A stretch of 64,000 nucleotides of DNA, taken from the NCBI RefSeq assembly GCF_021631985.1, contig NZ_CP070225.1, forward strand, positions 868,001-932,000. Reading direction: 5' to 3'. The position numbers and the translations under genes were made by a program. Of this stretch, positions 9,066 to 57,256 are shown one piece after another; within the stretch, counting starts at the first letter, position 1; the number at the start of each line of letters is the position of its first letter. This DNA is from Sandaracinus amylolyticus. GTDB taxonomy: Bacteria > Myxococcota_A > Polyangia > Polyangiales > Sandaracinaceae. The notes under the pieces were generated by a model. That model made no database searches, was not told where the DNA came from, and was given only the letters and a program-made list of their open reading frames with translations.

Positions 9066-11087
<2,022 letters not shown>

Positions 11088-11175: not shown

Positions 11176-11590
11176 GAGCGTCGGAGCTTCGTCCGGAACG
11201 ACGACGGGGCACCGCGTCGAGATGGCTCGCGGTCATCGAACCGCGCCGGATCGCTTGGTCGAGGTGGTCGTGAACGGCCGAACCACCGCGAGGCAGCGCG
11301 TCGAGGTGGTCGGTGGTCATCGGACCACCACGGACCACCTCGGCGAGGTGGTTGCCGCTGGTTCGCACCACGACGGACCGCCTCGCCGGGGTGGTTTGCG
11401 CCGACCGAGCCACGACGGACCGCCTCGCCGAGGTGGTCGCGGATGGTCTGGGCGACGTCTGACCGCCTCGTCGGGGTGGTCTGCGGCCACGGAACCACGA
11501 CGGATCGCCTCGCCGAGGTGGTCGCCGGTGGTTCGGAGCCCGTCCAGCGCCGCTCGCCCGCCTCGCAGGTGGTCTGGACCACCGATGGCC
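11176..11590. repeat. Tandem array of about nine to ten 42-43 bp units with a palindromic core
   Basis: The core CGCCTCGCCGAGGTGGT and variants recur with the GAGGTGGT element at 11261, 11303, 11345, 11388, 11430, 11473 and 11515, plus degenerate flanking copies near 11176, 11219 and 11566. One core is the near-perfect dyad CCACCTCGGCGAGGTGG. The spacing of 42, 42, 43, 42, 43, 42 bp is not a multiple of three, so the array cannot be a coding repeat, but it equals about four helical turns. It fills most of the 556 bp between the divergent ABC-F gene (start 11087) and the gene starting at 11644. Confidence 0.9.
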
Positions 11591-11643: not shown

Positions 11644-12921
11644 GTGACCGAGACCGACACTCCGCTCGATCGAACGCTTCGTGTCCTGTTGATCCTCGCG
11701 CTCTTCGTCGCGTCTCAGGTGGCAGCGGCGAGCCGCACCGCCCGGGAATTCGCGCCAGGCGGTGGCGGCGCTTTGGGCGGCAGCATCATCGCCGCGCTGA
11801 TACTCCTCGCGCGTGCCCGCGTCGTGCTCGAAGACTCGGTGCTCCGAGTCGGAGTCTTCCGTCGCAGGATCGCGTGGAGCGAGGTCCGCTCGGTCACGGT
11901 CGAGGGCCGCCGGCTCGTCATCCGATCCGGGCACGCGCGTGTGTCGCTCGACCCACGGCGCTTCGCCGATCCCGACGGGATGCTGCGCTTCATCCGCGCG
12001 CGGGTGACCCTCGATGCCTGGACTCTCGACGAGCGCGCGATGACGGAGCTCGTACTCGGCCGGCGCGTGACGCGCTTCGCGCTCGCGAGCGCGGCGACGG
12101 CCGAAGCGCCCGCCGGCTACCGCGAGCCACCCCGTGCTTCGGAGCCGGTGGCCGTCGCGAAGCTCTTCCCGCTTCCTCGGTTCGGCCGCGCGGACGTGTC
12201 GAGCACCGATCTCGCCCTGGGCGGCACGGCGCTCGTCGTCGCGTGCCTCGGCCTCACGATGCGCGCCCCGTCGAACGTCGTGGTCTCGGTCGCTGCCGTG
12301 AGCGGCGCGGCGGCGGTCGCCTACCGCGCGTGGCGGCGGTTCGTGGCGAAGCTCGACAACCAGCGCGCTCGCGCCGCGCGCAACGCGGCCTTCGTCGGCG
12401 AGCTCGTGCGCGTCGACGCGGCCACGTGGGCCTCGCTGGACGGGACCCGACGGCGGCGGCGTCACGCAGCGGATCTCGTCGATCCGTGGGAGGGCTCGCA
12501 CCAACACTACGAACGCATCGACCCCGCCACGGGCGAGACGCTCGCGTCGTACGTGGGGACGAGTGCCGGCGTGTTCGAGGGCGAGGCGCTGCCACGCACG
12601 CGCGAGGTCGGGGTGCTTCCGCAGCCGATCGATTCACAGCGCCATTGGGACGGATTCCCGCCCGAGCTCGACCGCTGGGCGGGACGCAAGGCAGTGACCC
12701 GTGGCGCGGCGAAGGTGCTGGTGATCGACACGCACCCCGACGCGGTGTTCGTGCATCGATTCTCCGAGGCTCGCGAACCCGTGGGCGACACGATGCACGC
12801 CGATCGCGACGCCGCGATGCGGCAGCTCGCGAGCGAGTATCCCGGCGTGAGCATCGAGTGGCGGCCCGTCGATCCCGCGGCCGGACGATGGGCGTTCTGG
12901 TCGGTCGCGCTCAGCTCGTGA
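11644..12921 (+). CDS. Hypothetical membrane protein with bPH2-like N-terminal domain
   Basis: A 425-residue protein. Two hydrophobic segments (about 10-28 and 40-57) precede a strand-rich stretch (VVLEDSVLRVGVFRR onward, about 60-125) resembling bacterial PH-like (bPH2/DUF304) domains. A second hydrophobic pair lies near 195-235. The C-terminal half is soluble, rich in His, Arg and Trp, and I recognise no catalytic motif. The GTG at 11644 is the only start ahead of the first hydrophobic segment and directly follows the repeat array. Its 3' end overlaps the convergent gene by 11 bp. Function is unknown. Confidence 0.7.
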   Translation: MTETDTPLDRTLRVLLILALFVASQVAAASRTAREFAPGGGGALGGSIIAALILLARARVVLEDSVLRVGVFRRRIAWSEVRSVTVEGRRLVIRSGHARVSLDPRRFADPDGMLRFIRARVTLDAWTLDERAMTELVLGRRVTRFALASAATAEAPAGYREPPRASEPVAVAKLFPLPRFGRADVSSTDLALGGTALVVACLGLTMRAPSNVVVSVAAVSGAAAVAYRAWRRFVAKLDNQRARAARNAAFVGELVRVDAATWASLDGTRRRRRHAADLVDPWEGSHQHYERIDPATGETLASYVGTSAGVFEGEALPRTREVGVLPQPIDSQRHWDGFPPELDRWAGRKAVTRGAAKVLVIDTHPDAVFVHRFSEAREPVGDTMHADRDAAMRQLASEYPGVSIEWRPVDPAAGRWAFWSVALSS

Positions 12922-50796: not shown

Positions 50797-51261
50797 TCTG
50801 CTCCAGCCGGGAGTGCTCGCTGACGGAGGGCGCGCACGGGAGCGTGCGAAGCACGCGGACGGGAGCGGCCTCCGCCCGCGAGCCGACGTTGAGCTCTGTC
50901 TGCTCCAGCCGGGAGTGCTCGCTGACGGAGGGCGCGCACGGGCTTAGCTGGAGTGCTCGCTGACGGAGGGCGCGCACGGGAGCGTGCGAAGCACGCGGAC
51001 GGGAGCGGCCTCCGCCCGCGAGCCGACGTTGAGCTCTGTCTGCTCCAGCCGGGAGTGCTCGCTGACGGAGGGCGCGCACGGGCTTAGCTGGAGTGCTCGC
51101 TGGCGGAGGGCGCGCACGGGAGCGTGCGAAGCACGCGGACGGGAGCGGCCTCCGCCCGCGAGCCGACGTTGGGCTCTGTCTGCCTAGCTGGAGTGCTCGA
51201 TGAAGTGCTCGATGACGGAGCACGCGGACGGGAGCGGCCTCCGCCAGCGAGCCGATGTTTT
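50797..51261. repeat. Array of a 140-bp hairpin-forming repeat
   Basis: Two identical 140-bp units (50811-50950, 50951-51090) are followed by a diverged third (51091-51190) and a partial fourth. Each holds the motif GAGTGCTCGCTG, then GCGTGC-GAA-GCACGC and ends in CCCGCGAGCCGA; the outer parts (GCTCGC, CGGAGG) pair with GCGAGC and CCTCCG, giving a long hairpin. Further copies at 59476-59545 (reversed) and 61078-61165 show it is a dispersed family. The array is between the mscS stop (51262) and the FIST start and contains no gene; the open frames across it are artefacts. Confidence 0.88.
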
Positions 51262-53578: not shown

Positions 53579-53623
53579 GCGCGCGGATCGCGGTGTCGGC
53601 GGCCGACATCCAGCTCCGGGCGC

Positions 53624-53820
53624 GCGGATGGCGTCGCGACCGGTCGCGGAGCAACCCTGTGCGCGGCGATGGCGTCGCGACCGGTCGCGGAGCAACCCTG
53701 CGCGCGGCGATGGCGTCGCGACCGGTCGCGGAGCAACCCTGCGCGCGGCGATTGGCATCGCGACCGGTCGCGGAGCAACCCTGCGCGCGGCGATGGCATC
53801 GCGACCGGCCGCGGAGCAAT
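53624..53820. repeat. Five-unit tandem array of 41-bp repeats with a 14-bp perfect palindrome
   Basis: The palindrome CGCGACCGGTCGCG is centred in each unit. The ACCGG element starts at 53639, 53680, 53721, 53763 and 53804, a spacing of 41, 41, 42 and 41 bp; the last copy carries one change (ACCGGCCGCG). Flanking bases (GGAGCAACCCTGCGCGCGGCGATGG-like) are also conserved. It lies between convergent genes ending at 53578 and 53854. The open frames crossing it are not genes. Confidence 0.92.
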
Positions 53821-53853
53821 TCCGTGCGCGCCGGCGGCGATCGCGGCCGCCGG

Positions 53854-56653: not shown

Positions 56654-57256
56654 ATGTCGAAGAAGCTTTTCGTGGGTGGTCTGAGCTGGGGTACGACGGA
56701 CGAGGGACTGCGGCAGGCGTTCGAGCGTTTCGGTGACGTGTCGGAAGCCAAGGTGATCACCGATCGCGAGACCGGTCGTTCGCGTGGCTTCGGGTTCGTC
56801 ACGTTCGCGGACGGTGCGGCAGCCGATCGTGCGATCCAGGAGATGGATGGCGCGATGCTCGACTCGCGCACCATCAACGTGAACGAGGCGCGTGAGCGCA
56901 CGCCGCGCGGTCCGGGCGGCGGTGGTGGCGGCTTCGGCGGCGGTGGCGGCGGCTACGGTGGCGGCGGCGGTGGCCGTGGCGGCTACGGCGGCGGCGGCGG
57001 CGGTCGCGACTTCGGCGGCGGTGGCGGCGGTTACGGCGGCGGTGGCGGTGGCTACGGCGGCGGTGGCGGCGGCTACGGCGGCGGTGGCGGTGGCTACGGC
57101 GGCGGTGGCGGCGGCTACGGCGGCGGCGGTGGCGCGCCGGGCGGCGGCGCCGGCGGCGGTGGCCGTGGTGGCAGCGGCGGCGGCGGGCGCGGGGGCGGCG
57201 GTGGCCGTCCGGAGCGCAAGCGTCGTCGTGGTGAGGACGACGACGGCGAGTGGTGA
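56654..57256 (+). CDS. Glycine-rich RRM RNA-binding protein
   Basis: A 200-residue protein with one RNA-recognition motif (residues 1-82): RNP2 is LFVGGL at 5-10 and RNP1 is RGFGFVTF near 45, with aromatic residues positioned for RNA stacking. The rest is a run of Gly-Gly-Tyr/Phe/Arg repeats and a basic end with RKRRR followed by an acidic tail. The architecture resembles cyanobacterial cold-induced Rbp and plant GRP proteins. It may remodel RNA at low temperature and could condense through the Gly-rich tail. The ATG at 56654 starts the motif exactly; a strong hairpin follows the gene. Confidence 0.95.

Follow-up and report, generated by a model that had tools for sequence, protein, structure and literature searches.

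A run of near-palindromic repeats spaced at about four helical turns, located between two divergent genes of the soil bacterium Sandaracinus amylolyticus, raises the question of which property of the DNA is kept at this locus, and for what. The window (the whole stretch of 64,000 nucleotides that was analysed) corresponds to positions 868001-932000 of the chromosome (10.75 Mb); the assembly also holds a second contig of 0.21 Mb. The features discussed are as follows, in window coordinates:

9066-11087, minus strand: ABC-F ATPase gene on the left, its transcription directed away from the array (gene call; Pfam ABC_tran twice and ABC_tran_Xtn)
11207-11523, no strand assigned: dyad array, eight units GACCRCC-N7-GGTGGTC (TRF, unit reading, shuffle test)
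11333-11353, no strand assigned: best-preserved unit of dyad A, GACCACCTCGGCGAGGTGGTT (19/21 consensus matches, 9/10 arm pairs)
11354-11375, no strand assigned: linker carrying the second dyad, B (TGGTTCGCACCA), whose centre lies about 21 bp from those of A (perfect form CGTGGTTCGAACCACG in the orthologous array)
11418-11438, no strand assigned: unit of dyad A in which the core given by the first-pass annotation is exact, GACCGCCTCGCCGAGGTGGTC
11555-11590, no strand assigned: decayed edge unit, CGCCCGCCTCGCAGGTGGTCTGGACCACC, the unit lying near 11555-11576 (read from the sequence)
about 11646-12921, plus strand: right neighbour, protein of no known family, transcribed away from the array
53600-53850, no strand assigned: second array of the same class, 41-bp unit, dyad CGCGACCGGTCGCG, between convergent genes (kept in the related genome G001 with the dyad CGCGACGCGTCGCG)

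The array consists of eight 21-bp dyads, one per 42-43 bp, starting at 11207, 11249, 11291, 11333, 11376, 11418, 11461 and 11503 (steps of 42, 42, 42, 43, 42, 43 and 42 bp). Autocorrelation was maximal at lags 85 (0.555) and 42 (0.458), TRF reported units of 42, 43 and 85 bp, and the self-similarity of the array was reached by none of 2000 dinucleotide-preserving shuffles (shuffle maximum 0.419). The array described in the first-pass annotation is therefore real, with eight to nine units (eight clear and one decayed) in place of the nine to ten that had been counted. The core given there was found in two exact copies (11421 and 11506) and, with 1-4 mismatches, in five further units. Dyad B (TGGTYCGRACCA) is located in the linker, about midway between the A dyads, so that two-fold centres alternate approximately every 21 bp, and the array matches its own reverse complement in part. 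The earlier description had included neither this linker dyad nor the related loci elsewhere in the genome, nor the second array of the window (~41 bp, 53600-53850).

As had been proposed, the array is non-coding and lies in a divergent gap, between the start of the ABC-F gene (11087, minus strand) and the right-hand gene (about 11646, plus strand). A coding origin, already dismissed on the ground that the spacing is not a multiple of three, was rejected because the region is non-coding and because coding repeats in the sampled stretches had units of 15, 18, 21, 24 bp and similar multiples of three, and none of 41 or 43 bp. The partly palindromic repeats and regular spacing are also reminiscent of CRISPR; this identity was rejected, since the linkers are recognisably repeated, with no unique spacers, and 42 bp is too short for a repeat plus a spacer.

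Relatives were searched for the array, which had been expected to recur there with conserved spacing and varying linkers if it was meaningful; this expectation, which could have failed, was borne out. Three arrays of the GACCACC family were found in the source genome: that of the window, one at 2255370, between tamB and sua5 (both minus strand), and one at 5574282; position 4312742 is probably a remnant of the family. Four were found in G001, the second complete genome of the genus (one contig, 10,327,335 bp), at 6593428, 5281871, 1998087 and 3222942. The array at 6593428 is the orthologue of the window array, because it lies directly upstream of the orthologue (55% identity) of the right-hand gene. 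It repeats every 43 bp and retains the arms GACCACC/GGTGGTC; its linker dyad is perfect, and the 7-bp centre of dyad A is replaced (TCGYCGA to TCKCGCC). The two other family arrays pair unit by unit with L038 and L039, most units following the same order of 42- and 43-bp steps, and the orthologous place is kept at all three family loci. In the L038 and L039 pairs, 10/210 positions were changed in the arms, 13/105 in the centres and 22/308 in the linkers; the contrast between arms and centres is modest (p=0.02) and is lost when the arms are compared with centre plus linker (p=0.10). Little covariation was seen in dyad A of the orthologous units. In the window's family, recognition seems to involve the arms GACCRCC/GGTGGTC, the 7-bp centre being free.

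A classical operator array, in which a single regulator bound to GACCRCC-N7-GGTGGTC would control its few loci (the ABC-F gene, tamB/sua5 and others), would account for arms common to all loci of the family in both species, for the conserved place, and for a free centre, as in many two-fold sites. We regard this explanation as quite improbable, because the same architecture recurs with unrelated sequences at many other loci, so that it fits the window's family only. In addition, a gene pair would not usually have eight or more operators, the tamB-sua5 locus is not a divergent promoter, and the genes adjoining the family loci share no theme.

First seen in TRF output for sampled stretches, the recurrence of the architecture was apparent in a survey of 1.66 Mb. 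The source genome contributed 1.264 Mb (the window and 60 stretches of 20 kb distributed along the genome), and G001 contributed 0.4 Mb. Across both genomes, intergenic arrays whose fundamental period was 23-80 bp numbered 28, and 20 of these had a unit of 41-43 bp (binomial p ~4e-20 against a uniform range, a rough guide since the arrays are partly non-independent). Each array has about 3-9 units, and the unit sequences are mostly unrelated across loci: apart from the window's own family, small families were formed by L052 and L082, by L053 and L140, and by L058 and the 53600 array, and most of the remaining sampled arrays match no other array in the sample. The density outside the window (about 12 arrays in 1.2 Mb, roughly ten per Mb) gives an estimate, extrapolated from the sampled stretches, of about 100 such arrays per genome. 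It is this lock of unit length across unrelated sequences that is the point of interest.

The lock was maintained during sequence drift. Over 23 arrays, 132/139 unit steps were of 41-43 bp, and this held in arrays with as much as 28% substitution relative to the consensus; L052 carries 72 substitutions in 255 bases, yet its steps are 44, 43, 43, 43 and 43 bp, and L082 is a second drifted example. Between species, gap events per substitution were 0.14 in the arrays versus 0.28 in neighbouring intergenic DNA (54 and 29 events). These data suggest that spacing, not letters, is the kept property of the class, with the reservation that homogenisation within arrays also removes indels, which counts against selection on spacing. 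A sub-periodicity of 10-11 or 21 bp was weak as a class-wide feature and was clear only in a few arrays (e.g. L131 and L102).

Outside the genus, no 41-43 bp peak was detected in samples from four other genomes of the family (0.54 Mb), nor at further loci totalling 1.34 Mb, mostly from Myxococcota around the ABC-F gene. The two exceptions, G026 and G097, are members of a single different family within the order. In G026, contig C212 starts inside a 42-bp dyad array of similar sequence (L042 1-181), and five weak profile matches in tandem, with steps of 42, 45, 43 and 43 bp, were found in the 13.3-Mb genome of G097; this kind of array is thus not strictly confined to the genus. Draft genomes may conceal such arrays because assemblies break at them. 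Upstream of the ABC-F gene of Nannocystis pusilla (L240 9023-9423), tandem repeats with units of 49 and 64 bp, which include a dyad (GAGCCTGTCTGATGAGACAGG), were observed. A literature search on tandem or palindromic repeats in Sandaracinus or Sorangium returned nothing relevant.

At 8 of 10 tested loci, the orthologous place in G001 also holds an array, with an identical or almost identical period, the exceptions being L128 and L083. Since these two have no counterpart there, arrays are born and lost. L128 (9236-9552) holds a nearly uniform 42-bp array of 7.7 copies with 98% identity; it is probably young and is the best locus for the study of array origin. At both L128 and L083 the global alignment was poor, and no insertion boundary could be read. 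In the first, older unit of L128, the second hairpin is spelled differently and is still paired (GACCGA/TCGGTC vs GATCG/CGATC).

This turnover is what would be expected of neutral or selfish minisatellites, that is, functionless palindrome-rich repeats grown by slippage or unequal recombination under a mechanical bias of the genus towards ~42 bp. Like bacterial minisatellites (VNTRs), the arrays are tandem, head-to-tail, intergenic and homogenised within each locus; their unit sequences are locus-specific, small dispersed families exist, and the arrays sit where constraint is weak. VNTR periods vary between loci, whereas these arrays hold a near-constant period at unrelated loci and commonly contain dyads. 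Neutral growth also has to be reconciled with the conservation in place across species, does not easily explain how heavily drifted arrays hold 42-43 bp steps with few indels, and requires an unknown bias towards 42 bp, no other period being comparably common and no such peak occurring in the other genomes sampled. We consider it somewhat unlikely.

With respect to neighbouring genes, 9 of 22 arrays were located between convergent genes, against an expectation of 13% for gaps of at least 60 bp (p=8.5e-4), and 3 of 22 between divergent genes (35% expected for the same gaps, p=0.04); against all adjacent gene pairs, the convergent excess was weaker (p=0.03) and the divergent depletion was absent. 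This location test is approximate, because the genes were called with a simple codon-usage caller and the arrays themselves lengthen gaps. The window array, in its divergent gap, is atypical of its class. The first-pass annotation had suggested a multimeric protein-binding or nucleoid-organising site in a divergent promoter region: the phased dyads with conserved spacing stood, and such a reading of putative sites in the window array is partly supported, but it describes the class poorly, given the unrelated units, the density of about ten per Mb and the convergent-gene excess.

Symmetry was a common property of the class. Matches to the reverse complement exceeded column-permuted controls, in which period and composition were kept, in 18 or more of 27 arrays, and in about a third of the arrays the two best dyad centres were 20-22 bp (about half a period) apart, as for a fully two-fold repeat. 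Folding was better than in column-permuted controls on both strands in all but a few arrays (z -6.7 for the plus strand of the window array). Such folding, the convergent-gene excess and the lower rate of change at predicted paired positions (15.8% vs 23.0% at unpaired positions) would be consistent with an RNA-level element, the packed hairpins acting at transcript ends as two-way terminators or 3'-end protectors. Against this, hairpins need no fixed 41-43 bp step, the window array is upstream of both its neighbours, and the Rfam scan of the 64-kb window gave no match.

The pairing tests point in the same direction. In the orthologous arrays, covariation of paired bases, as in a structured RNA family, was not seen: retention of changed pairs equalled the control in the compensatory-change test (p=0.73), and doubly changed pairs were kept in 21 cases and broken in 19, versus 24 and 44 in the control (p=0.11). 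Since changed pairs were retained no more than in the control, selection on pairing itself is not shown. In the 53600 array, the dyad changed from CGCGACCGGTCGCG to CGCGACGCGTCGCG between species, the palindrome still being perfect. Arrays between co-directional genes had no sense-strand folding advantage of consistent direction, and the sign of the difference between G-T and A-C counts in dyads varied from array to array. The lack of compensatory retention and of a consistently favoured strand speaks for DNA rather than RNA, and we judge an RNA-level element unlikely.

Among known systems, BIMEs bind gyrase and sit at 3' ends, and iteron and operator arrays (DnaA boxes, plasmid partition sites) are helically phased, repeated protein sites, either two-fold or direct. 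The class differs from the latter in having no constant site sequence and about ten loci per Mb on the chromosome; the identical site sequence that a single regulator would use was found within the GACCACC family only, most arrays of the class mismatching one another. The likeness to REP/BIME elements, for which the roles proposed include supercoiling, termination and mRNA stability (PMC3733652), lies in the intergenic location, the palindromes and the sometimes tandem arrangement. REPs form one or few sequence families with many copies, tagged with GTAG or CGTC and accompanied by a Y1 transposase, whereas the class arrays are locus-specific. No match to RAYT (Y1_Tnp, PF01797) was found in either genome of the genus (5/14 control genomes match), and the GTAG tag is absent from the unit consensus of the window's family, which has 3-4 loci per genome. 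A REP/BIME system with RAYT was rejected on these grounds: no Y1_Tnp protein, no GTAG, and not many copies of one sequence.

The window array thus belongs to a genus-wide class with a 41-43 bp unit (about four helical turns) that is usually dyad-symmetric, largely irrespective of unit sequence, and its arrays remain at orthologous places while the units homogenise and drift. Over RNA hairpins or neutral minisatellites we prefer, tentatively and at a probability short of even, a DNA-level architectural element locked in its spacing; it is the most likely reading because what appears to be kept is spacing together with two-fold symmetry. The period lock, the dyads, the conservation in place, the arms changing less than the centres and the convergent-gene excess were counted in its support. 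Under this architectural reading, selection would keep both the spacing and the two-fold symmetry, and the DNA would form a ladder of equivalent two-fold sites, all on one face of the helix. A symmetric protein might line up on this ladder, recognising dyads or DNA shape more than any fixed sequence; candidates are a nucleoid-associated protein or, where converging transcription units end, a wrapping enzyme such as gyrase. The period peak could also stem from the formation of the arrays instead of from selection.

The broader proposal, a chromosome-wide element set by spacing and two-fold symmetry, with about a hundred arrays per genome, the unit selected at about four turns and a putative protein sensing phased dyads or DNA shape, is possible, if on the unlikely side. 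Repeat classes are normally recognised by sequence, and a class defined by length and symmetry would escape standard annotation. If true, the arrays would provide a natural experiment on helically phased, sequence-tolerant landmarks at bacterial transcript ends; even if they are neutral, the sharp 41-43 bp preference would indicate an unknown amplification mechanism.

Two other repeats were observed in the window. Positions 50810-51203 hold tandem copies of a dispersed element of ~90-140 bp (GGGAGTGCTCG...CGGACGGGAGCGCGCGAAGCGCGCGGACGG), which is a repeat family separate from the 42-bp arrays; it occupies many intergenic sites in both genomes (e.g. L057, L066, L080, L100 and L137) and sometimes adjoins a 42-bp array. 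At 56915-57205, a glycine-rich tandem repeat (GGCGGCGGTGGCGGCGGCTAC, 21 bp) lies inside a called gene.
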